A stretch of DNA of 25,715 nucleotides. It comes from a virus. The notes under the pieces were generated by a model that made no database searches, had not been told where the DNA came from, and saw only the letters and a program-made list of their open reading frames with translations. The translations under genes were made by a program, and so were the position numbers. Below, piece by piece: positions 4,516 to 25,370 of this stretch. Where the stretch lies: positions 1 to 25,715 of the IMG/VR virus record IMGVR_UViG_3300009164_000323, one strand, 5' to 3'. Within the stretch, counting starts at the first letter, position 1. The number at the start of each line of letters is the position of its first letter.

Positions 4516-5236
4516 GAAGACTGAGAGCAAGGGTAACTGGGTAATGGATGCGTTCGCACGGAGCGACCATCACGAACACCCGCACACTGCGATGTGGGGT
4601 AACATCTCTACAGTAAAGAGCTATCCCCAACCTTTCATATTCACTGACATGCCCTACTTCAATCGCTGGATGGGCTATAACAGAGACACTTGCCACTGGC
4701 GTGTTATACCCAATCATGTACATGCTCCTTCTGACTTAAAGGATAGGTTTCCCGATGATAGATTCAAGCGGCTTGGTATCACGGTTCGAGACTGGAGAAC
4801 TACGGGCGATCACATACTAGTATGTCCTAGCAGCCCTGCTATGGAACGATACTACGGTGATGTCAACTGGCTCGAAGGTACAGTACAGCTTCTAAAGCAG
4901 CACACGGATCGACCCATTAGAGTGAGACACAAGCCTCGTGCTAATGGCACCAGCGGTCCTCGTGCTGCCGCCATACCGTTCGAGGAAGATTGTAAGAACG
5001 CCTGGGCAGTGGTCACATTGGCCAGCATCTCGGCGGTAGAAGCAGCCTGCTTGGGCATACCTGTATTCACACATGAGCGAGCACCTGGCAGCATATTTGG
5101 CAACAATGATCTTGCTAACATAGAGAGTCCAACCATGTACAATTATGGCCTGCGCACCTTGTGGTTAAATACCCTTGCCTACTATCAATACACTGAAGCG
5201 GAAATTGCTGCCGGGATCTACAAGGAGATACTCTAG
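4499..5236 (+). CDS. Glycosyltransferase-like protein, GT-B/capsule type (paralogue 2 of 3)
   Basis: The ATG at 4499 is preferred over 4478 because MQLIYRKTES aligns with the start of the next paralogue (MILFYKTFGQ). It overlaps the upstream gene by 17 nt. The protein has 245 residues. It carries RPIRVRHKPR and, further on, a VTLASISAVEAACLGIPVFT block followed by a PGSIFGNND segment. This is the acceptor/donor-binding end seen in capsule-type GT-B enzymes. The tail (WLNTLAYYQYTEAEIAAGI) matches the tail of paralogue 3 (WLDQLVHHQFRTREMLDGT). The stop TAG at 5234-5236 shares a base with the next start. Confidence 0.65.
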   Translation: MQLIYRKTESKGNWVMDAFARSDHHEHPHTAMWGNISTVKSYPQPFIFTDMPYFNRWMGYNRDTCHWRVIPNHVHAPSDLKDRFPDDRFKRLGITVRDWRTTGDHILVCPSSPAMERYYGDVNWLEGTVQLLKQHTDRPIRVRHKPRANGTSGPRAAAIPFEEDCKNAWAVVTLASISAVEAACLGIPVFTHERAPGSIFGNNDLANIESPTMYNYGLRTLWLNTLAYYQYTEAEIAAGIYKEIL

Positions 5237-13579: not shown

Positions 13580-14322
13580 TACCAGGAGTTAGACTAACGA
13601 CTGCTCAGAAGATGAAGTTTGCCAAGCTGTCTGCAAACGTGGAAACCATATCTGATTACATGTCTATATTCAGACAACTGGAGTATCAAGAACTTACACA
13701 ATACTTTAGGATGACGAATAGTAGCTGGCCCGAACGAGAAGGAGAGTTCAGGACTGTCGGTAATATAGGAATCGAAAAAGATTATTACGAGAAACACATA
13801 TTAACTCAGACTCCTCCGGCAATAGAAGAGCTCAATCTAAACGATGAAGTGAAACTACTTAGTGGAAATCATATATCTAGCCACATGGAATATGATTTAA
13901 GCGATATTAAACAACGAATCTTAGAAAAGTTTGGATTGATGGAATGCGAAGTAGCATTACATGATCAACCGCCTGGCGGTGTGCATGTGTGGCATTATGA
14001 CAGCATGCTACGATACTATGAATCTATCTGGTTACCCGCTGATCCTGCTCGCGGTAAACTCAAGTTGAATAAACAAACGCAATGGGCCGATGACGGAACT
14101 ATGCCTATTAGATTATTCGTATCACTAAAAGATTGGCATTACGGACAGATATTCCAATTTGGTAGTAAATTATGGCAGGGATGGCAAGCAGGAGATGTGA
14201 TCTGGTTTGAATGGCAGAATCTTCCTCATGCTACTGCTAATGCAAGCATGTTTAATCGACCGATCGTTCGAGTCACTGGATTGATATCGTTATCCGATGA
14301 AAAGCACAATATGCTCCGGTAA
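13576..14322 (+). CDS. 2OG-Fe(II) oxygenase-like protein (tandem paralogue 1)
   Basis: 248 residues. An iron facial triad can be read as His140-x-Asp142 (WHYD) and His218 (LPHATAN), with Arg228 or Arg232 (RPIVRV) placed to bind 2-oxoglutarate. The core is a beta-helix-like pattern with IFQFGSKLWQGWQAGDVIWFEW before the distal His. The N-terminus shares TTAQKMKFA and the phrase TNSxWPxREG with the next gene, so the two are paralogues. Phage members of this superfamily are common in marine T4-like genomes; substrates are usually unknown (protein, nucleic acid or small molecule). The start is in ATGA overlap with the small membrane gene. Confidence 0.75.
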   Translation: MIPGVRLTTAQKMKFAKLSANVETISDYMSIFRQLEYQELTQYFRMTNSSWPEREGEFRTVGNIGIEKDYYEKHILTQTPPAIEELNLNDEVKLLSGNHISSHMEYDLSDIKQRILEKFGLMECEVALHDQPPGGVHVWHYDSMLRYYESIWLPADPARGKLKLNKQTQWADDGTMPIRLFVSLKDWHYGQIFQFGSKLWQGWQAGDVIWFEWQNLPHATANASMFNRPIVRVTGLISLSDEKHNMLR

Positions 14323-16004: not shown

Positions 16005-17318
16005 TCAGAAATAAAGTGTTAACATCCTAACTATAGCAGGTTCTAATCGATCTTGCAATAAGAAAACGAATATGAAAGGCATCTTATCTTGGTTGCGTAA
16101 CAGCAGTCCGATCGTTGAGAACACTGCTAACACTATGATGTAATATAGCCCCTGACCATAGCTGTATCCAATCTTGAACACGGTATAGGTGCAGATAGCA
16201 GTCAGTATCCAAGGTGTGTATCTGCCCAACTTGTATAGGTTCTTTATCACTGCACCAGCTAGGTTCCAGCTGAGAAAGAAACTGATGATGTTAGCTATGA
16301 TCAACCATGCTGCTACAGTCTCGAATATCGGCTTGACCGTGATCCAGTTTAACACATGTGCAGATGTGTTGGTTATCTCTAGCAATAGATTCTCACTAGG
16401 TTGGATAGCAATGCCGTATATCAACACTGGCAGCAACACGCTGATCCCTGCTGCATTAGTTGCAGTCTCAGCAGCAGTCGCTTGTCTCAGAGATGAATTC
16501 TTTAACCAGCGTTCGACATAGAATGCGATATATGCGCTGACGTCAATGCCCACATAGGGAATGAGTCCTGCGAAGAATCCGATCCAACTTCCTCGAATCA
16601 TCGAGAAGACATTATCCTTTATCAGTTTCAGCTTGTTGACTAGCTTCCTATTAAAATCGATAGCAGCAGAAGCTGCACCATCCAATGAATCGATGGATTT
16701 CACGATGTTTGGTATCGCATACATGCCCAGCAACACGCTGATCACAGGTAATCCGCCACTGAGCCACATATTGCCGAACGTGAGGAAATGCTCCTTGCTG
16801 TAAGGATCTATTCCTATCTTGCTGAGCGTCCACCCAGCGGGTATCATCAACAGTGTCATCCACCAACGATTATCGCTGAACACGGAACACATGATGAGTC
16901 CGATAGCACTGAATCCGATCATCACGTAGACACGGAGATAGTCAGTATTGGTTGCAATGAAATCGATGATCAGATAGCTGAGCACGAACGTGCTGATAGC
17001 GCCTACAAAATGACCAAACGCACACAGGAACAGTGCTTCCAGTTGGTTATCTTCGCGTATGATGTCGTCTCGTATCCGCAGCAATGGTATGCTGTTCGTC
17101 TCGCCTGGCAATCCTACTGCTAATGCAGTGATGCTACCGCCAAACTGACAAGCACTTACCATGGAGCAGTAGAATATCAATATCAACACTAGCGGCAGTT
17201 TCATGAGGAAAGTAAATGCCAGGATCATGAACACTGACACTCCTATTCCCGGTAGAAGTCCTGCGATGAATCCAGCGGAGACTCCTGCTAAGCAGGCTAT
17301 TAGATGTTCTATTCCCAT
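16005..17318 (-). CDS. TctA-type permease of the tripartite tricarboxylate transporter
   Basis: 437 residues with about ten to twelve hydrophobic segments. Residues near 16-30 carry AGFIAGLLPGIGVSVFM, the first signature (GLLPGIG). A second, related segment near 260 (FFAGLIPYVGIDVSAYIAF) reflects the internal duplication of TctA. TAAETATNAAGISVLLPVLIYGI is the conserved post-duplication block. It is shorter than bacterial TctA (about 500). Its start shares a base with the stop of the PP-loop gene (TGATG). TctA is the large membrane subunit; the small TctB subunit is not in this window, so either the host supplies TctB or the phage pair works without it. Confidence 0.85.
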   Translation of the reverse strand: MGIEHLIACLAGVSAGFIAGLLPGIGVSVFMILAFTFLMKLPLVLILIFYCSMVSACQFGGSITALAVGLPGETNSIPLLRIRDDIIREDNQLEALFLCAFGHFVGAISTFVLSYLIIDFIATNTDYLRVYVMIGFSAIGLIMCSVFSDNRWWMTLLMIPAGWTLSKIGIDPYSKEHFLTFGNMWLSGGLPVISVLLGMYAIPNIVKSIDSLDGAASAAIDFNRKLVNKLKLIKDNVFSMIRGSWIGFFAGLIPYVGIDVSAYIAFYVERWLKNSSLRQATAAETATNAAGISVLLPVLIYGIAIQPSENLLLEITNTSAHVLNWITVKPIFETVAAWLIIANIISFFLSWNLAGAVIKNLYKLGRYTPWILTAICTYTVFKIGYSYGQGLYYIIVLAVFSTIGLLLRNQDKMPFIFVFLLQDRLEPAIVRMLTLYF

Positions 17319-18556
17319 CAGTCGCTTTCTAATTCTTCTTCTGTATGATACCAGATGTAGTGCTTCGGACTGCTCAGTGTTGGAAAACCGCTGTGCCAGA
17401 ACGACATGCTATGAGCATACAATGGTTTGACAGTTTTGTAAAGCTCAAATATGCCTCTGGTCCAGTTCTTGAAGAATTCGGTATTGCGATCTCGGACTGA
17501 CCAATCGCTACAAGGCTTCCAGGGCGTGCTGTTGGTCAGATGCATGCCGGGAACATCCTTGATGCTCTTGAGACCATGATAAGGTCTGGGTAGGAAACGA
17601 GGACCATACAGTATCTTACCGAGCACATCTTCGTGTATCCGACTGAAGCACAATTCTTCGCTCTGTGCTAATATAGGATCTCCTGCTTGTCTTGCTTTCC
17701 GTATCATGTGCGCTTGTTTAAGCTGCATCTTGATAGTAGTAGGATCCCAATAGAACAGTTCTACCCACTGTGGAAGTCCTGGTTCTAATGCTCTAGGCAA
17801 TACATGGTCCTGATGATTCGTCTCGCCATAGCGCATGAAATACCCTATCTCATCTCGGAACACGCCGGGCTTCTCTTTGCCTATAATGTGTCCGACACGC
17901 TTTCCTTTCTCAGTCATCACTCGCCAAGGACGATGAAGCAGATCATAGTCTGTCCTGGGCAGAGCAAATGGATCGATGCTGGCAGTGTGTCTCTTCTCGA
18001 ACCATTTTGGATCCGATTCGATCATCTTCAGCAATGTATCTGTTGTATCAGCAAAAGTGATTTCGACATCGGGCCAATAGTTACCTTTGATATATTTTGC
18101 TACCGGCAGTGCTAGATTGTGGGGTTCTAAGCATTCCATATCGGTTGCTACGTTCTGTTTCTCGAACTCGGATCTAGCAGTGTTCACAGAACCTGCATGA
18201 TACCGTATGAATAGTTGATCTATCTTCAGTCCTGCTCTGATGAAAGTCTGTGCAATGTTTCCGCTGTCATCGCCACCGCTGAAATGCAAAACGAGGTAAT
18301 CATAATCGTTACGAAGCTGTCTAGCTCTTTGAGCGTACAGTTCGAATATATCTTCCTCGGGTTCTTTAGTTAGATCGACTGCAGCTAGTTCTTTCTCAAA
18401 TATGTGCCAAGTCAGTTCTTGCCCAGACTTGATGCTATCCTGGAATGCTTCTAGCTTGTTGAAATATTCTCTATCTCCAACTCGATACACACCGACCTTG
18501 TGTACGTTTGTGTTTATTATCCTGGGATCGTTGATTAATGACAAGTCAGGCTCCAC
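17318..18556 (-). CDS. PP-loop ATP pyrophosphatase-like protein
   Basis: 412 residues starting at GTG 18556, which overlaps the end of the radical SAM gene by 11 nt; no ATG fits as well. LVLHFSGGDDSGNIAQTFI contains the PP-loop SGGxDS at residues 93-98. Such loops bind ATP in N-type pyrophosphatases (asparagine synthetase, PAPS reductase, tRNA-thiolation and QueC-like enzymes), which activate a carboxylate or carbonyl as an adenylate. The rest (about 300 residues) has no family landmark I recognise. It lies between a radical SAM protein and the TctA/TctC pair, all overlapping, which suggests one pathway. QueC, TilS and MnmA are unlikely given the length and context. Confidence 0.75.
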   Translation of the reverse strand: MEPDLSLINDPRIINTNVHKVGVYRVGDREYFNKLEAFQDSIKSGQELTWHIFEKELAAVDLTKEPEEDIFELYAQRARQLRNDYDYLVLHFSGGDDSGNIAQTFIRAGLKIDQLFIRYHAGSVNTARSEFEKQNVATDMECLEPHNLALPVAKYIKGNYWPDVEITFADTTDTLLKMIESDPKWFEKRHTASIDPFALPRTDYDLLHRPWRVMTEKGKRVGHIIGKEKPGVFRDEIGYFMRYGETNHQDHVLPRALEPGLPQWVELFYWDPTTIKMQLKQAHMIRKARQAGDPILAQSEELCFSRIHEDVLGKILYGPRFLPRPYHGLKSIKDVPGMHLTNSTPWKPCSDWSVRDRNTEFFKNWTRGIFELYKTVKPLYAHSMSFWHSGFPTLSSPKHYIWYHTEEELESD

Positions 18557-19850
18557 AATGTCTCTGAAGCAATGACCAAAGATCTGGCAGAGTGGAGCGC
18601 CAATCAGTCTTTCGAGTCCTATCTAGATAATCCATCAATCTAATAAATTTGTCTATCATAACAGGATCTTCCGGCCAATCTAGCCTACCTTCGAGAAATT
18701 TGTTCAATGCTACCACTCTCGGAGAATCTACTGATCGATTAAACTCGACGATCTCTTGCTTGGCAGATCTTGGTAACGAATCTATGCTCATGTATTCGGG
18801 AGAATATATCCATCGATATACTACGTTAGGACTATTCTTGTTATTGATTCTCCAGTGTTCTATCTCTGGTACACTAAAGATGTTTGGAAGCATGTAGCAA
18901 ACGCTGGTTCCCCAGAAATATATATGGTCCTGGTTCATTACTATATCGAGGTTCTTCTCGAACGTTTCCCACTTTCCCCCATAACGTATCAGCTCGTAAC
19001 GATGACCAACATCATCCATGCTACCTGACAGTCCTACACGTTTGAAATGCTTCCATCTCTCTATCAATTTTGGATTGACTACGCTGAGGTTGCTTGCTGG
19101 CCATAGCGTTATGTTCTTAGCAACATCGTGTTCGATGAAGAAGTCTAGGACCTTATCGTGGTCCTGCATGATGAAAGGTTCGCCGCCTAATATGGCTACG
19201 TCGATTAGATCGTCCTTGATCTCGTTCAATATCTTCCAAAAGTTCTCTGATTTGACATAAGGATCGAAGTTTGCTTTTAGCTTACCGTTGTCATTCCTCG
19301 TCAGCGTCCATTTGGTAGATAGATCACCGCCGGGTCCCTTATGGAAGTCTGGACCGAAGAATCCGTTATAATCTTCATACCATAACGTGCTTTCGGCTGG
19401 GCTACAATGCAAGCAGGCGTAGTTACAGAGATTTCCAAAACGTAGATCAAGCGTCTGTATCTTGACTTTGTCTATATAACCAGTGACTGGATCAGCGGAT
19501 CTTATCAGTCTTGCTATCTCTTGATCTTCTGGAACTCTTCTCTGCAGGTTCTTCATCATGCCTGCGGGATTGGTCTTAATGTCCTTGCAGTTAACGCAGT
19601 GTTTATGCCACTTGCCCTGTAACTGATGTAATCTAATATCTTTATGTAGATCGCTGTTTAACACATCTTGTAATACAGCACCCTTGCCTATGTTATACCT
19701 GTCGCTGTTACCGAGATAACCTTGGGTAGATCTATCTTCGCACTGTTCGCGACAGACTACCATCTCTCCGGTATTCTTCGTGGATATCTCGCTCCAAGGA
19801 TAGCTACAGAATACATCCTTGATGTCCTGGTATTTAGGTTTCTTTTCCAT
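18546..19850 (-). CDS. Radical SAM protein with N-terminal twitch/SPASM-like segment (1)
   Basis: 434 residues from the ATG at 19850; an extended frame to 19985 would run through tRNA-Val and is rejected. The CxxxCxxC motif is Cys142, Cys146, Cys149 (GNLCNYACLHC). GGEP at 222-225 binds SAM. Before the core lie Cys15 (FCSYPW), Cys33 and Cys37 (VVCREQC) and Cys85/Cys88 (HCVNC), with a G-N near residue 48. This resembles the SPASM/twitch auxiliary cluster region, but placed at the N-terminus. Such enzymes modify peptides or small molecules by radical chemistry. It is the first protein gene of an operon headed by tRNA-Val 20 nt upstream; no ribosome site is seen in that gap. Confidence 0.85.
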   Translation of the reverse strand: MEKKPKYQDIKDVFCSYPWSEISTKNTGEMVVCREQCEDRSTQGYLGNSDRYNIGKGAVLQDVLNSDLHKDIRLHQLQGKWHKHCVNCKDIKTNPAGMMKNLQRRVPEDQEIARLIRSADPVTGYIDKVKIQTLDLRFGNLCNYACLHCSPAESTLWYEDYNGFFGPDFHKGPGGDLSTKWTLTRNDNGKLKANFDPYVKSENFWKILNEIKDDLIDVAILGGEPFIMQDHDKVLDFFIEHDVAKNITLWPASNLSVVNPKLIERWKHFKRVGLSGSMDDVGHRYELIRYGGKWETFEKNLDIVMNQDHIYFWGTSVCYMLPNIFSVPEIEHWRINNKNSPNVVYRWIYSPEYMSIDSLPRSAKQEIVEFNRSVDSPRVVALNKFLEGRLDWPEDPVMIDKFIRLMDYLDRTRKTDWRSTLPDLWSLLQRHCGA

Positions 19851-19870: not shown

Positions 19871-19945
19871 TGGTGGGTGATGAGAGATTCGAACTCCCGA
19901 CAACTGCTGTGTAAAAGCAGGGCTCTACCGCTGAGCTAATCACCC
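19871..19945 (-). tRNA. tRNA-Val (anticodon UAC)
   Basis: A complete cloverleaf. The 7-bp acceptor is GGGTGAT with ATCACCC, the D arm is normal, the anticodon stem CTGCT/AGCAG has loop TTTACAC (UAC), and TTCGAAT is the T loop. The discriminator is A and CCA is encoded (plus-strand TGG at 19871-19873). It sits alone between two divergent radical SAM genes, 20 nt before the start of one. Its 5' end is 8 nt past the -10 box. Confidence 0.95.
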
Positions 19946-19953
19946 ATGTTATA

Positions 19954-19981
19954 ATAATAGCATATTTATCGAGCTTGTCAA
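19954..19981 (-). promoter_or_regulatory. Promoter of the tRNA-Val / radical SAM operon
   Basis: On the minus strand TTGACA (19976-19981) and TATTAT (19954-19959) are 16 nt apart. Eight bases separate the -10 box from the tRNA 5' end. A late-type GATAAATA also reads on the minus strand at 19963-19970. Confidence 0.8.
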
Positions 19982-19990
19982 TCACTTAGT

Positions 19991-19996
19991 TAAATA
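19991..19996 (+). promoter_or_regulatory. TAAATA box 5 nt before a start codon (site 3)
   Basis: TAAATA ends 5 nt before the ATG at 20002 of the second radical SAM gene, with no ribosome site. The box reads GTTAAATAC, slightly different from the other sites. Confidence 0.4.
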
Positions 19997-20001
19997 CCCG
20001 C

Positions 20002-21222
20002 ATGGAACCTTTACAGTGCAAGTTGGCTGAGCTAAGCCTAAACCTCGATATGAGCGGCCAGATGAGTTGCTGCAATCTAAACAATCTCTATCTCAAGGAT
20101 GAGCTAGGAAACACCCTTAGGTTAGATAAGGACAGCGTTCGATCTGCTTGGACCAGTCCTACACGTCGCAAGCTATTAGGAACTCTCGAGAAAGGCATAC
20201 CTCATCCTTACTGCAGAGCATGTTGGAACATGGAAGCAGTGGGCAGCAAGAGCATACGCCAGCACTATAACACGCTGTTAGCGGATGTAGAGCCTCTACC
20301 ATCCCAACCTCGCATCATGATCATCAAGCACGGCAACAAGTGCAACAGCGCATGTCGTAGCTGTAGCGCACACAGTAGCACGCTCTGGTACAAGGATGCT
20401 TATGCTATGGAAGAGACTGATGTGCCTTATAAGGTATGGCTCAAGCAATGGCGCAGCCATGAGGAGAGCTATAACGATAATCAGGATCTCAAGGAGACAC
20501 TGGCAGAGTGGAGCGAGGGCATCGTGTTCTTCGATCTGTATGGGGGGGAGCCGTTGTTGCATCCGTTGACCTACGATATCGTAGATCATGCTGTCACGTC
20601 AGGACATGCAGCAAACCAGGACATTCAGATGCATATCAACGGCACGATATGGAATGATAAGCTGGTGGAGCAGTTGAAACAATATAAATCAGTTAGCATA
20701 GGCTACAGTGTAGATGCCGTAGGCGGGCGTAACGATTATATCAGGATGGGTAGCAAGTGGGATGTAGTATTGTCTAACCTAGAACGCTGGTTAGAGGTAG
20801 CTAGGAATCATCCTAACTTCAGTGTATCCATCAAATGCACAGGCATGAGCCATAACGTGTACTACCTAGGTGAGACGTTTGATTTCTTCAGTCGCATGGA
20901 TGTTCCTATGTATTTCACTAATCGTGTGACTGATGTAGACAAGCGTGAAGCTAACATGATGTATCTTCCCGAATTTGCGAAGCAAGCAGTCATAGACAAG
21001 TTAATGTCGTACGAACCATTGCCTAAGTATAAGGATCTATGGGAAGATCAGAGAGATTGTACCATACGCTTCATCAGCAAGAAGCCTACCGATCACGACA
21101 CGTTTGTTGATAGTTTCTGGATACGCAATCGCAAGCTGGATCTAATGCGTAGGCAAGACTATGGTAAGGTATTTCCGGAATTCAATGTTATATTGGAAGA
21201 TCATTATGTTGGTGCCCAATGA
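20002..21222 (+). CDS. Radical SAM protein with N-terminal twitch/SPASM-like segment (2)
   Basis: 406 residues. Cys114, Cys118, Cys121 (GNKCNSACRSC) form the radical SAM motif and GGEP at 181-184 the SAM-binding part. N-terminal cysteines Cys23/Cys24 (GQMSCC) and Cys71/Cys74 (YCRACW) with a G-N near 37 repeat the plan of the divergent paralogue. LEKGIPHPYCRACWNMEAVG resembles the corresponding twitch part. It is divergent from the tRNA-Val operon. The last four codons and TGA 21220-21222 lie inside the antisense 3' end of tRNA-Thr, so the tRNA sequence supplies the stop. The two paralogues look substantially diverged. Substrate unknown. Confidence 0.85.
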   Translation: MEPLQCKLAELSLNLDMSGQMSCCNLNNLYLKDELGNTLRLDKDSVRSAWTSPTRRKLLGTLEKGIPHPYCRACWNMEAVGSKSIRQHYNTLLADVEPLPSQPRIMIIKHGNKCNSACRSCSAHSSTLWYKDAYAMEETDVPYKVWLKQWRSHEESYNDNQDLKETLAEWSEGIVFFDLYGGEPLLHPLTYDIVDHAVTSGHAANQDIQMHINGTIWNDKLVEQLKQYKSVSIGYSVDAVGGRNDYIRMGSKWDVVLSNLERWLEVARNHPNFSVSIKCTGMSHNVYYLGETFDFFSRMDVPMYFTNRVTDVDKREANMMYLPEFAKQAVIDKLMSYEPLPKYKDLWEDQRDCTIRFISKKPTDHDTFVDSFWIRNRKLDLMRRQDYGKVFPEFNVILEDHYVGAQ

Positions 21223-21284
21223 GGGATTCGAACCCCCGACCTACGGTTTACGAAACCGTTGCACTACCTCTGTGCTAATTGGGC
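21210..21284 (-). tRNA. tRNA-Thr (anticodon CGU)
   Basis: Acceptor GCCCAAT with ATTGGGC, anticodon stem ACGGT/ACCGT, loop TTCGTAA (CGU), T loop TTCGAAT, discriminator A, encoded CCA. No promoter fits just upstream. It is probably co-transcribed with the oxygenase gene whose stop codon it contains (TAG formed by tRNA positions 8-10). Confidence 0.95.
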
Positions 21285-21895
21285 AGGAAAGGATTAGTCT
21301 CTAGTCCTACCTGTATCGCTGTCCTGTGTCCAGGAATGTTCTCTACGCTGTGTGGAAATCTCGCATCCAGTATCACCCAAGTGTTCAACGGTATCACGAT
21401 GCTATCTGATTCTACTAGTTCGTCCTCATCGCCCCAGATCTCAGCACGTTCGAAGACTGTTCGTCCGTCCTTAGAATCCCAGAACACAGTTCTGTGATCC
21501 TCGCCGCCCGACTCTAATAGATAGATCATAGCAAATGATCTAGTCCTGTCGGTGTGTGGAGGATGCCTATGACCTGGATCAATGCTTCTATGCAGTCTCA
21601 GCGTCTCATATTTGCTCACGATATGTTCCTCAACCCACTCTATTAATCTCTGAGATAGATCGATACCAGGAATGCGTTTCAGACCGTTTGCTGTATATTC
21701 TTCCATGGTATGTTTCTTGAGATAGTTCTTCATGGATTGACTGTGCGAACTGGTCATGTATTGTTTGAACTGAGAATTATCCTCGTCTACTGCTGCTAGC
21801 GTCTCTTCGATCATGTCCTCGGGCACCTGAGGTAGATGATCCAGTATCATGTAGCGCGGGGAGATTATGGAATAATCGTGATATTGATCTGTCAT
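21275..21895 (-). CDS. 2OG-Fe(II) oxygenase-like protein (prolyl/aspartyl hydroxylase type)
   Basis: 206 residues from the ATG at 21895; AAAGG precedes it at a suitable distance, and upstream in-frame codons overlap an RNA gene. His114-x-Asp116 (PPHTDRTRS), His182 (FPHSVEN) and Arg191 (GHRTAIQ) are the iron and 2-oxoglutarate residues. The spacing between the Asp and distal His (66) fits the superfamily. It is not a close paralogue of the tandem pair at 13576-15080. The stop TAG (21275-21277) falls in tRNA-Thr, 7 nt from its 5' end. Upstream on the same strand are tRNA-Tyr and a tRNA-like element, so the gene sits in a tRNA-led transcript. Substrate unknown. Confidence 0.8.
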   Translation of the reverse strand: MTDQYHDYSIISPRYMILDHLPQVPEDMIEETLAAVDEDNSQFKQYMTSSHSQSMKNYLKKHTMEEYTANGLKRIPGIDLSQRLIEWVEEHIVSKYETLRLHRSIDPGHRHPPHTDRTRSFAMIYLLESGGEDHRTVFWDSKDGRTVFERAEIWGDEDELVESDSIVIPLNTWVILDARFPHSVENIPGHRTAIQVGLETNPFLPN

Positions 21896-21921
21896 TGAAT
21901 CTGCCTTTCGATGATACTTAG

Positions 21922-22018
21922 TGGTTGCGCTGCGGAATCGAACCGCTCTTGGCATTTTGAAACCTACTCCACCTCTCGGCGTCTCGGATTTCCTGTGCTA
22001 CCATTACACTAGACGCAA
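21922..22018 (-). tRNA. tRNA-like element with an abnormal anticodon domain
   Basis: The ends and arms of a tRNA are present: near-paired acceptor (TTGCGTC with AGCGCAA), a normal D arm (GTGTAATGGTAGCAC), a T arm GCGG-TTCGATT-CCGC, and CCA. The 47 nt between the D and T arms is about 24 nt longer than in a normal tRNA, and no 5-bp anticodon stem with a 7-nt loop forms. A hairpin CGCC-GAGA-GGTG and an outer GAAA(T)CC/GGTTTC pairing are possible. The middle also contains a second D-arm-like stretch, so the element may be a chimera of two tRNAs. The specificity cannot be assigned. It may be a pseudo-tRNA. Confidence 0.5.
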
Positions 22019-22021
22019 ACT

Positions 22022-22104
22022 TGGTGGGCCGTCCTGGAATCGAACCAGGCATGCTATAAGCGGGGGATTTACAGTCCCCGGTATCACCTTGATACTTCCG
22101 ACCC
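22022..22104 (-). tRNA. tRNA-Tyr (anticodon GUA)
   Basis: Anticodon stem GGGGA/TCCCC with loop CTGTAAA (GUA), T arm CCTGG-TTCGATT-CCAGG, acceptor GGGTCGG with ACGGCCC (one mismatch, one wobble), discriminator A, encoded CCA. An enlarged variable arm fits bacterial class II tRNA-Tyr. It is 3 nt before the tRNA-like element. Confidence 0.9.
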
Positions 22105-22119
22105 TTAACTCTCATTATC

Positions 22120-22147
22120 ATATTAACATAATTGGATGATATGTCAA
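22120..22147 (-). promoter_or_regulatory. Promoter of tRNA-Tyr
   Basis: TTGACA on the minus strand (22142-22147) with TAATAT (22120-22125) 16 nt away; a second possible -10, TATGAT, lies at 22117-22122. The -10 box is farther from the tRNA (15 nt) than in the other tRNA promoters. Confidence 0.6.
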
Positions 22148-22157
22148 CCGTTAATCT

Positions 22158-22234
22158 TGGTACCCAGTGATGGATTCGAACCAACTCCTCCAGATCCACA
22201 ATCTGGTGTGCTGAACCAACAACACTAACTGGGC
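22158..22234 (-). tRNA. tRNA-His (anticodon GUG)
   Basis: Anticodon stem CCAGA/TCTGG, loop TTGTGGA (GUG), T loop TTCGAAT, acceptor GCCCAGT/ACTGGGT (one G-T pair), encoded CCA. The base before position 1 is T and the discriminator is A, whereas His tRNAs usually have G and C there. Confidence 0.92.
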
Positions 22235-22242
22235 ATTATCTA

Positions 22243-22270
22243 ATAATAGCACAGTATCAGAATATGTCAA
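22243..22270 (-). promoter_or_regulatory. Promoter of tRNA-His inside the end of the iron permease gene
   Basis: On the minus strand TTGACA (22265-22270) and TATTAT (22243-22248) are 16 nt apart, with 8 nt to the tRNA 5' end. The -35 box is made of the last permease codons. Confidence 0.8.
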
Positions 22271-22859
22271 TACCATAGATCTCTAATGTCTCTGTGACCC
22301 CGTGCCATAGATAGTAAGCGGCCATTGCCAATAACACGAATCCAACATAGCGGAACATGATCCGGCTGGTCATGCCCTTACCAATGCGCTCGTAAGCATA
22401 AAGTACAGCCGCTAGCACAGGGACACCTGCAGCGAGTCCGATGATCACTCCCGTGGGATCTGTCTTGATGTTAGATCCAAGGAACACTGTGGACTCTAAT
22501 GCTTCACGCAGCACGATGAGAAACACTGTTAGGTGTATGGTCCATATGCTGCTGTCCTTCACTTCGTTAGCATGCTCCTTCGCATGATCAAAGATCGCTC
22601 GACTGTTAAAGAAGATATAGATCAGCACGAATGCAGTGACTATCTTGAACATGTTCTCGATGTGCTCCATCCACGGCCATATCGCGTCCAGCACGAACCA
22701 GCCTGCAGCCAGCGTCAGCACCCATGTCGCTACGAAGTTGAAATTGATATGGTTCTTGTATTCCTTAGGGAGAGCAGAAACAATCATGCCTGTGAGCAAC
22801 AAGCTCTCGAAGCCTTCTCGAACTAATACAAGTGCAGTGCTGGTGACGGTGCTTAACAT
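22257..22859 (-). CDS. FTR1/EfeU-type high-affinity iron permease
   Basis: 200 residues with about six to seven hydrophobic segments. The two hallmark iron-path motifs of the FTR1/Fip1/EfeU family are both present: REGFE at 14-18 and REALE at 118-122, each in a membrane helix (LVLVREGFESLL; FLIVLREALEST). Spacing by about 104 residues reflects the ancestral duplication. The protein is shorter than bacterial EfeU (about 270-280) because the C-terminal part is reduced. In the family, these Glu residues guide Fe(III)/Fe(II) across the inner membrane, with EfeO and EfeB as partners; neither partner is in this window. The ATG follows AAGGAA. tRNA-Arg lies 20 nt upstream in the same transcript; the end overlaps the tRNA-His promoter. 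Confidence 0.9.
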   Translation of the reverse strand: MLSTVTSTALVLVREGFESLLLTGMIVSALPKEYKNHINFNFVATWVLTLAAGWFVLDAIWPWMEHIENMFKIVTAFVLIYIFFNSRAIFDHAKEHANEVKDSSIWTIHLTVFLIVLREALESTVFLGSNIKTDPTGVIIGLAAGVPVLAAVLYAYERIGKGMTSRIMFRYVGFVLLAMAAYYLWHGVTETLEIYGIDIF

Positions 22860-22879
22860 GGCGGTTCCTTAAAAGTATA

Positions 22880-22956
22880 TGGCGATCCGGAAGGGATTCG
22901 AACCCCTGACACCAGCTTTAGGAAAGCTGTGCTCTATCCTGCTGAGCTACCGGACC
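22880..22956 (-). tRNA. tRNA-Arg (anticodon CCU)
   Basis: Acceptor GGTCCGG/CCGGATC (one wobble), anticodon stem CAGCT/AGCTG, loop TTCCTAA (CCU), T loop TTCGAAT, discriminator G, encoded CCA. It is 20 nt ahead of the iron permease gene and 8 nt from its own -10 box. Confidence 0.95.
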
Positions 22957-22964
22957 ATATCAAC

Positions 22965-22992
22965 ATTGTAACATATACTGTTAGTTAGTCAA
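22965..22992 (-). promoter_or_regulatory. Promoter of tRNA-Arg and the iron permease gene
   Basis: On the minus strand TTGACT (22987-22992) and TACAAT (22965-22970) are 16 nt apart, with 8 nt from the -10 box to the mature tRNA 5' end. Confidence 0.8.
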
Positions 22993-22996
22993 TAAG

Positions 22997-23013
22997 TATC
23001 CTGTAACAGGATA
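22997..23013. promoter_or_regulatory. 17-bp palindrome upstream of the duplicated glycosyltransferase gene
   Basis: TATCCTGT (22997-23004) and ACAGGATA (23006-23013) are perfect 8-bp arms around one base. It lies between the tRNA-Arg promoter and the TAAATATC box of the next gene, a typical operator position. Confidence 0.5.
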
Positions 23014-23026
23014 TGATTGGTCGAGT

Positions 23027-23034
23027 TAAATATC
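23027..23034 (+). promoter_or_regulatory. TAAATATC box 4 nt before a start codon (site 4)
   Basis: TAAATA ends 4 nt before the ATG at 23037. It supports 23037 as the start rather than the in-frame ATG at 23013, which lies inside the palindrome. Confidence 0.4.
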
Positions 23035-23036
23035 GG

Positions 23037-25361
23037 ATGATTTTACCCTGTAAAGAGAACAAGATCGAACATAATCTAGTGTTCTTCGATCATCCAGAAC
23101 ACGTTAGTCGAGATCACCTGGTAGATCAACAGATATTGTTAGATCCTCGAAAGATGTATCTAAGATTTGAAACAATCTGTCAACACGTCGATATCAGCAG
23201 ATATTTCCTGTTCGTCGTGCATTTCAGAAACGATTTCCGGGACTTTCCTTATGATTACATCGATCGATATCGTAAGCATGCAGTTGCACATGATCTAATA
23301 TTTCGAATAGTGATGTTTGAACCAGGAGAAGCTCCTACCTATCGTTGGGATATGAGACAGGTAGTTGATACGCTTGTATCTTCTTATGCATTGGATCGCT
23401 ATGCTATCATATTCATGAGTGGTGCTCAACACCAGTTTTCCGATCCGTTCATCAATAGCATATGTTATGATGCTATAGGTTTTGAGGACATGTGGAAATC
23501 TATTAGACCTTGGCGTATACCTACGCATCATTATATTAGTCTAGCTCGCAGGGCTAAACCACACAGGATAGTTGCTACCGTAGAGATGCTTGATCGACGG
23601 CTGGACAATTTTGGTCACATGAGCTTAGGAGCTGCAGGTGATAATGCCTGCGAACCTAGATTTAGATATCTCATACCCGACCGATATCTAGATAGATTTC
23701 CTATTAGGCTAGATCACGATAACGTGACTGATGATCTGATGTATGATACGACAGATGATCGTATCACTGATGCGTTTGTTAATGTGATAATGGAAACCAG
23801 CTTCGAGCGAGATCCTTGGAATAACGAAACTTGGAACGTGCCATTCATGACAGAGAAAACCAGCAAGGCTTTCCTTCTAAGACAAGTGCCGATCATGATA
23901 TCTCATCGGTATTCCTTGACTTTCCTCAGAGAACATGGATTCGATCTGTTCGATGATATCATCGATCATAGTTACGACAACGAGGCTAGACCGGAAACCA
24001 GGATAAAGATGGCTATAGATCAATTACAGATCATATGCAGCAAGGACATCACGCATTGGCAGGATTATAAGATCGCTAATCAACACAGATTCGATAAAAA
24101 CAATAATATCATGCAGTCGATGATATTAGATAGAGATCTAAATTCTGCTCGCAACCTTAGCAAGGCATTGACATACTCAAATTCTACAACAGTTTATAAT
24201 ATAGATCATCGTACGATGAATTCTGTATGGTTAGAAACAGGTTGCTATCGCAATGATCAATATGGTTATGTCAATCAAGTCTTAGAACAATGTGATATCA
24301 GCAGATTCTTTCTATTCATTATTGATCAAAACGGGCTCGTCGGCGATGGTGTATTTCCAGAAGAACTACTTAAAGAATATCAGAGACATGCTGAGCATAA
24401 TAATCTCATCTTCGTCGTCGTGTTCGTAAATCTACAGGAAGCGCCTACATATCCTCATACATTCAAACCGATGGTAGATAGCATATCTCAGAGATATAAC
24501 ATACCGTTAGAAAGAATGATCATCTTCGGTGGCGCACAGCATCAGTTTGATACCCCTATACAGAACGCACTTACTCTTAAGGTTGCAGCCAAACCGTATC
24601 TATGGATCGATTCGAATCCATACAATGATCACGCACAACATAGCAATCAGCCCACACATCATTTCATAAGCCTAGCGAGACATCCTAAGTTCCATAGGAT
24701 AGCTGCCACTGTAGAGATATTGGATAGAGGATTACAGGATCTGGGATACATGAGCTTGGGCAGCACGGAGAACAGGTATTTCTGGGAAAATCTAAGCGCC
24801 GTCCCTGCGCGATATCACCCACTCGTGCCTATGATCTTGGATCATCAGGATGTACAGGAACAGGACATATACGGTAGCACGGATGATCGGATGGTGAGAG
24901 CATTTGTGAATCTAGTGATGGAGAGTGCATACGAACCTAGACCTTGGGGGCAAGGCTTATGGAACGTGCCGTTCATGACGGAGAAAACCATGAAGCCTTT
25001 CATATGGGGACAGGTTCCTGTGTTCGTAGCACATCAGCATAGCTTAAAATTCTTGAGGGATTGGGGGTTTGATCTATTCGAGGACATCGTGGATCATAGC
25101 TATGACTGCGATCCCGATTCAGCTGGTCGAGTAGTGTTAGCGATAGATCAGCTAGAAAAGATATGCAAGATGCCGATAGAACATTGGCAGCAGTATAAGA
25201 CAGATAACATGCATAGATTCAATCACAATGCTGATATGGCTCGAAAGGTCATGCATGAGCAGGAGCTGGTAGCGATACCTAATTTTAGGAAAGCATTAGA
25301 ATTGGCTGGAGGACAGAGACTCGAACCTCAGACATCCAGAGCCTGGCGTTCTACCAACTGA
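23037..25361 (+). CDS. Large internally duplicated glycosyltransferase-like protein
   Basis: 774 residues in two homologous halves of about 380. Landmarks recur in order in both: DISR(Y/F)FLF, EAPTY, GAQHQF, (Y/F)ISLARxxKxHRI(V/A)ATVE, (H/Y)MSLG, DDRxxxAFVNxxME, WNVPFMTEKT.K.F, LxFLRxxGFDLF, IxDHSYD and a HWQxYK end. The EKT-x-K-x(3)-GxxP(V/I) plus GF-x-LF and DHSYD layout is that of a phage C-terminal glycosyltransferase domain with a conserved TEKT box. So it is probably a gene fusion after tandem duplication. The first half keeps TEKTSKAF and the second TEKTMKPF. The last about 19 codons and the TGA (25359-25361) are read from a degenerate tRNA-Gln on the opposite strand, so the original C-terminus was probably altered. 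Substrate unknown. Confidence 0.75.
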   Translation: MILPCKENKIEHNLVFFDHPEHVSRDHLVDQQILLDPRKMYLRFETICQHVDISRYFLFVVHFRNDFRDFPYDYIDRYRKHAVAHDLIFRIVMFEPGEAPTYRWDMRQVVDTLVSSYALDRYAIIFMSGAQHQFSDPFINSICYDAIGFEDMWKSIRPWRIPTHHYISLARRAKPHRIVATVEMLDRRLDNFGHMSLGAAGDNACEPRFRYLIPDRYLDRFPIRLDHDNVTDDLMYDTTDDRITDAFVNVIMETSFERDPWNNETWNVPFMTEKTSKAFLLRQVPIMISHRYSLTFLREHGFDLFDDIIDHSYDNEARPETRIKMAIDQLQIICSKDITHWQDYKIANQHRFDKNNNIMQSMILDRDLNSARNLSKALTYSNSTTVYNIDHRTMNSVWLETGCYRNDQYGYVNQVLEQCDISRFFLFIIDQNGLVGDGVFPEELLKEYQRHAEHNNLIFVVVFVNLQEAPTYPHTFKPMVDSISQRYNIPLERMIIFGGAQHQFDTPIQNALTLKVAAKPYLWIDSNPYNDHAQHSNQPTHHFISLARHPKFHRIAATVEILDRGLQDLGYMSLGSTENRYFWENLSAVPARYHPLVPMILDHQDVQEQDIYGSTDDRMVRAFVNLVMESAYEPRPWGQGLWNVPFMTEKTMKPFIWGQVPVFVAHQHSLKFLRDWGFDLFEDIVDHSYDCDPDSAGRVVLAIDQLEKICKMPIEHWQQYKTDNMHRFNHNADMARKVMHEQELVAIPNFRKALELAGGQRLEPQTSRAWRSTN

Positions 25362-25370
25362 CTATTTCCC
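25303..25370 (-). pseudogene. Degenerate tRNA-Gln copy lacking the anticodon
   Basis: It matches the nearby tRNA-Gln(CUG) at 25545-25620 over most of its length (shared D arm TCAGTTGGTAGAACGCCAG, T loop TTCGAGT, GCCA end). About 6 nt holding the anticodon loop are missing; only CCAG-GCT-CTGG remains. The acceptor pairs poorly. The + strand glycosyltransferase gene reads through it and ends inside. Confidence 0.8.

Follow-up and report, generated by a model that had tools for sequence, protein, structure and literature searches.

Promoters and tRNA genes at the locus

We analyzed the tRNA genes and their promoters in a 25,715-nt stretch of viral DNA (IMG/VR record IMGVR_UViG_3300009164_000323, positions 1 to 25,715; hereafter the window), which is a fragment of a jumbo phage. 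Three genes on the minus strand encode tRNA-Val (TAC, with CCA encoded; 19871..19945), tRNA-His (GTG, with G1:U72 and A73 and without G-1; 22158..22234) and tRNA-Arg (CCT; 22880..22956), all called by ARAGORN and Rfam, and the mature 5' ends of the window's tRNAs were concordant between ARAGORN, Rfam RF00005 and the acceptor stems. The window was scanned for sigma70-type promoters, defined by a -35 box TTGACA, a spacer of 16-18 nt and a -10 box TATAAT with at least 9 of 12 consensus matches. The promoters of tRNA-Val (-35 TTGACA at 19976..19981, -10 at 19954..19959) and tRNA-His (-35 TTGACA at 22265..22270, -10 at 22243..22248) read TTGACA-N16-TATTAT, and that of tRNA-Arg (-35 TTGACT at 22987..22992, -10 at 22965..22970) reads TTGACT-N16-TACAAT, with 11, 11 and 10 of the 12 consensus positions matched, respectively. 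All three -10 boxes, which also stood out by a weighted sigma70 score, are of the extended type with TG before the box (TGC at tRNA-Val). Furthermore, exactly 8 nt separate the -10 box from the mature 5' end in each case: TATAACAT at tRNA-Val (19946..19953), TAGATAAT at tRNA-His (22235..22242) and GTTGATAT at tRNA-Arg (22957..22964). Thus, the common layout with an 8-nt gap that an original prediction had read from the letters of the window was confirmed by ARAGORN, Rfam and the promoter scan. A fourth promoter, which that prediction had overlooked, precedes tRNA-Tyr (GTA, ARAGORN; 22022..22104, minus strand) and reads TTGACA-16-TAATAT (-35 at 22142..22147, -10 at 22120..22125), with 15 nt to the mature end and a predicted leader of ~9 nt; the fixed 8-nt distance is therefore found in three of the four window tRNAs with a promoter of their own.

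A weighted sigma70 score of at least 10.2 was reached by only five sites of the 25.7-kb window, both strands included. Four of these directly precede tRNAs; the three 8-nt cases rank highest, and the fourth site is that of tRNA-Tyr. In a sample of 236 tRNAs of related jumbo phages, chosen regardless of promoters, strong sites were enriched over background 18-fold at gaps of 7-9 nt and 27-fold at gaps of 10-13 nt, whereas there were none at gaps of 0-6 nt and no excess at 21-80 nt. The layout at tRNA-Val, tRNA-His and tRNA-Arg is thus far beyond chance.

Gap lengths in phages and in cells

Gap lengths were compared using a first pattern, TTGACA-N16-18-TATAAT-N7-37-TAGCTCAG, on viral contigs and on bacterial and archaeal genomes. 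Gaps were taken first from ARAGORN and then recounted from the conserved T at position 8 after the -10 box (T8), with a second viral pattern added; some 7-nt gaps from ARAGORN were off by one, and the recount was used. Figures obtained with the first pattern, on viral contigs and on genomes alike, apply among the matches listed and to consensus promoters, and phage contigs were sampled unevenly. A gap of at most 9 nt was found in 43 of 152 viral and 0 of 112 cellular tRNAs (p = 3e-12), and the difference persisted (23 of 95 versus 0 of 103; p = 1e-8) when matches were collapsed to cluster, gap and isotype by single linkage. An independent pattern gave short gaps in 13 of 47 viral and 0 of 6 bacterial cases, the bacterial gaps here being taken from match length. 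Across 398 genomes of Pseudomonadota a single match of 49 had a short gap (9 nt, genome G166), and a relaxed pattern run on 289 genomes of Alphaproteobacteria returned gaps mostly of 10-15 nt, with roughly 10 of ~150 matches listed near 7-9 nt as read by hand from match length. The check that the original prediction had called for, namely that the same spacing should recur at other phage tRNAs and not at random sites, was therefore positive both in the gap counts and in the enrichment. The spacing is a phage habit, of which cells are capable but which they seldom use.

Spacing of the 8-nt type was also present in the phages Atu_ph07, Phosso, Munch and RaK2 and in contig G022, in close relatives of the window phage (G860, G850 and G834, whose UvsX proteins are 74-80% identical to its own) and in large contigs lacking a UvsX match (G841, G855, G856, G857 and G859). 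Single-linkage clustering put most short-gap phages into one group, so the case for independent occurrence rests on these long contigs without a matching UvsX; since they are fragments, the absence of the gene is suggestive only. As judged from these contigs, the spacing appears to recur in unrelated large phages. In Salmonella phage Munch (L128), two tRNA genes (4654-4744 and 13584-13660) carry a near-identical promoter block, GGGACA-N17-TATAATATAATTA(C/T), with an 8-nt gap, as if promoter and gene had been copied together. We found no description of this promoter spacing for RaK2/PA5oct/Atu_ph07/Phosso-like jumbo phages in the open-access papers searched.

Transcription start, leader and RNase P

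Transcription from sigma70 promoters most commonly starts at a purine some 7 nt downstream of the -10 box. Among the matches listed, viral gaps peaked at 8 nt and were almost never shorter than 7 nt. Position 7 was A in 20 of the 24 phage 8-nt gaps and position 8 was T in 23 of them, with G1 of the tRNA following in 20. The A at position 7 (A7) was still present in 9 of 14 phage 9-nt gaps and hence tracks the distance from the -10 box, not from the tRNA; in bacterial gaps of up to 20 nt it occurred in only 4 of 66. All three window promoters have the order A7-T8 followed by G1, with A7 at 19947 (tRNA-Val), 22236 (tRNA-His) and 22958 (tRNA-Arg). With a gap of 4-6 nt, position 7 would coincide with the mature tRNA end or fall within the tRNA, and phage gaps of this size were absent from the consensus-pattern matches listed, which included one 3-nt case; a single 6-nt gap, behind a TAATAT box, was seen in G856. 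From the conservation of A7-T8 and the missing 4-6-nt gaps we infer a start at A7, which would leave a leader of 2 nt, pppAU. The original prediction of leaders of 0-2 nt was thus supported by the promoter-tRNA geometry, while initiation precisely on the first base of the mature tRNA, which it had also proposed, is the less likely choice given the conserved A7 and the absent gaps.

What this leader would mean for maturation depends on RNase P. Leaders of E. coli tRNAs span 2-52 nt, and the enzyme is described as cleaving optimally at A(-2)U(-1) (PMC10731613). The U(-1) of the proposed leader may pair with A73, as it does in predicted folds of the tRNA-Val and tRNA-His precursors. We consider it probable, at about 0.62, that these are minimal-leader tRNA promoters for host sigma70 that yield near-mature precursors still cleavable by RNase P and that often head a tRNA-mRNA unit. 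The tRNA-Val, tRNA-His and tRNA-Arg genes would each be transcribed from their own strong, extended -10 promoter of host sigma70 type, most likely from the A seven bases past the -10 box, giving a primary transcript in which pppAU precedes G1 of the tRNA. The AU leader would keep both bases that bacterial RNase P favors beside its cut, and the host enzyme would make one minimal cut; the 3' side, which would run into a protein gene (tRNA-Val, tRNA-Arg) or into the next promoter region (tRNA-His), would have to be removed as well. The AT-rich discriminator and the consensus boxes suggest that host RNA polymerase, unmodified, would transcribe these genes strongly, and expression early in infection is plausible from promoters of host type.

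Several points weigh against this reading. The start site, in this phage and in its relatives, is deduced from sequence; the geometry would also allow a start at G1, which lies behind T8 and 9 nt past the -10 box, and choice of the start site could be the sole reason why the AU is retained. The RNase P holoenzyme changes its affinity with leader length over the range of 2-5 nt (PMC4919922), so precursors with a 2-nt leader may make poorer substrates. Furthermore, the bacterial comparison sets consist of the matches listed and may differ from the phage set in base composition.

Other tRNAs of the window bear on how much processing could be saved. The tRNA-Thr gene (CGT, ARAGORN; 21210..21284, minus strand) has no promoter of its own and needs 5' processing, and the window promoter scan found no promoter of the Val/His/Arg kind at it or at either tRNA-Gln gene; tRNA-Met sits at the contig end, too close for an upstream promoter to be called. 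Directly 3' of tRNA-Tyr lies a degenerate tRNA-like element (21922..22018, minus strand; Rfam tRNA-Sec, 20.7 bits against a cut-off of 47). It was not called by ARAGORN and has extra sequence between the D arm and the anticodon arm; the weak match may mark a degenerate or unusual tRNA, and an intron-bearing tRNA was tested as an explanation and not supported. Next to the tRNA-Gln genes is a truncated copy of them (25303-25370, minus strand) with part of the anticodon arm gone and a GCCA end, which overlaps the 3' end of a plus-strand open reading frame (ORF) at 23013-25361. The tRNAs of the window are thus not leaderless throughout: the gap at tRNA-Tyr is 15 nt, and tRNA-Thr and tRNA-Gln lack such promoters. 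In related clusters, likewise, most tRNAs lie inside the cluster and lack a strong promoter dedicated to them. The genes for tRNA-Thr, tRNA-Tyr (~9-nt leader) and tRNA-Gln and the extra tRNA-like element are dependent on RNase P, and since they need 5' processing the phage cannot dispense with the enzyme as a whole. The spacing therefore probably shortens RNase P trimming rather than abolishing it; full bypass is less likely, with bypass for selected tRNAs a possibility.

The original prediction had gone further and let transcription start at G1, so that the tRNAs might need little or no RNase P processing; a bypass of this kind is the rule for all tRNAs of Nanoarchaeum equitans. The 8-nt spacing itself would fit such a start, T8 before G1 would provide a pyrimidine-purine step, and leaderless tRNA transcription through fixed promoter placement is known in N. 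equitans (PMC10100707). However, the conserved A7 would compete as a start, and the matches listed hold no phage gaps of 4-6 nt, in which G1 or inner bases would occupy position 7. Independence from RNase P is further disfavored by the AU leader, which fits the optimal cleavage site (PMC10731613), and by the other window tRNAs and most tRNAs of related clusters, which need the enzyme anyway; in addition, a 5' triphosphate cuts the charging of E. coli tRNA-His ~14-fold (PMC10100707). We therefore regard a start at G1 as unlikely. Similarly doubtful is the broader proposal that many phages place host sigma70 promoters such that selected tRNAs are made without RNase P, or with a vestigial dependence on it, and so obtain usable tRNA faster than from host-type precursors; if true, phages would have a way of their own around a maturation step that is otherwise nearly universal.

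The cause of the spacing is a separate matter, and here general compactness, with promoters at the smallest distance from tRNAs that transcription and RNase P permit and no advantage in the short leader itself, is a tentative but serious candidate that is compatible with the proposed AU leader and its start at A7. It is favored by gaps that, among the matches listed, spread continuously over 7-14 nt and cut off sharply at the lower end, and by the lack in phages of the C/G-richer discriminators of bacterial tRNA promoters, but a mode at exactly 8 nt and the conservation of A7-T8 give the impression of tuning and not just of shortness, and the spacing recurs in unrelated contigs. A quite improbable explanation casts the tRNA as a 5' module of an mRNA, in which the short leader lets the acceptor stem bury the 5' end and protects or paces the downstream mRNA until 3' processing. 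A radical-SAM-like ORF (18549..19850, minus strand) indeed begins with its ATG 20 nt after the 3' end of tRNA-Val, forming a tRNA-mRNA unit, and an FTR1-like ORF (22257..22859, minus strand) starts 20 nt after that of tRNA-Arg; an ORF start lay within 60 nt downstream of 23 of 42 short-gap phage tRNAs. However, 21 of 47 and 34 of 62 phage tRNAs with longer gaps were alike, and dense phage genomes yield such proximity for free; being common whatever the gap, it is no argument for a short leader. Least credible of all, and very improbable, is that the spacing arose by chance or was inherited from host tRNA genes: AT-rich sequence favors -10-like hexamers, and gaps near 7-9 nt also occur at some alphaproteobacterial tRNAs, but the large enrichment is confined to one distance and short gaps are nearly absent from bacterial tRNA promoters.

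The phage, its host and known systems

The single-stranded DNA-binding protein (SSB; phrog_1192) of the window shares 48% identity with its counterpart in Sinorhizobium phage Phosso and has further matches in PA5oct, Atu_ph07 and RaK2, and a UvsX-like gene adjoins the SSB gene in the window as in Phosso and RaK2, as expected for this jumbo group. UvsX proteins 74-80% identical to that of the window were found in G832, G834, G850 and G860, with G860 at 80%. No direct relatives of the locus were found when four neighboring proteins were compared with viral contigs and the DNA with phages by megablast. The tRNA-His form with A73 and G1:U72 and without G-1 also occurs in Atu_ph07 and in one of the two Phosso copies, while Kaldavass, G022 and SCTP-2 have G at -1; the tRNA-His genes of Phosso (L138-L143) are thus of mixed type, G-1 being present in one and missing from the other, which has the alphaproteobacterial form. 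Wang, Sobral and Williams are said to have described the loss of G-1 in 2007 as typical of alphaproteobacteria, and the host is thus probably an alphaproteobacterium, judging by this tRNA.

Two divergent radical-SAM-like genes, the one at 18549-19850 and another at 20002-21219 (plus strand), flank tRNA-Val, and both belong to phrog_14086. Unusual phage cargo is present in a match to the tripartite tricarboxylate transporter TctA (16008-17318, minus strand) and in the FTR1 iron permease match (22260-22859, minus strand). The radical-SAM, FTR1-like and 782-aa neighbor genes taught us nothing further on the tRNAs.

Phage tRNAs have been widely catalogued, and their transcription and maturation little studied. 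A phage-wide geometry that trims tRNA leaders to ~2 nt and is rare in bacteria would be a concrete, testable rule, with a bearing on the timing and speed of phage tRNA action, on the minimal leader acceptable to RNase P in the cell and on how compact cassettes for tRNA expression are designed.

Leaderless tRNAs throughout are known from N. equitans alone (PMC10100707), and one exception to the transcription of tRNAs as precursors is mentioned in PMC10941002. As far as the account of Randau 2008 cited in PMC10100707 goes, N. equitans resembles the window phage in a promoter at a fixed short distance and a leader nearly or wholly gone, and differs in its archaeal promoter, its start at +1 (or at -1 for three tRNAs), the absence of RNase P and the inclusion of all tRNAs. 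In the window phage, by contrast, the arrangement concerns some tRNAs only, the promoters are of bacterial sigma70 type, the leader is probably 2 nt and host RNase P is presumably present. Bacterial monocistronic tRNA promoters share sigma70, a leader cut by RNase P and the A(-2)U(-1) preference (PMC10731613), but their gaps are mostly at least 10 nt and their discriminators C/G-richer and without A7, where phages have a mode of 8 nt and A7-T8. RaK2/PA5oct/Atu_ph07/Phosso-like jumbo phages share the SSB and UvsX group, tRNAs scattered among protein genes and, in some, the same spacing. Finally, mapping in Listeria phage CKA15, of another phage group and host, has revealed strong early promoters of sigma-A type (TTGAC/TATAMT), two of them near tRNA loci (PMC12282133), which by analogy supports the presence of active host-type promoters near phage tRNAs.

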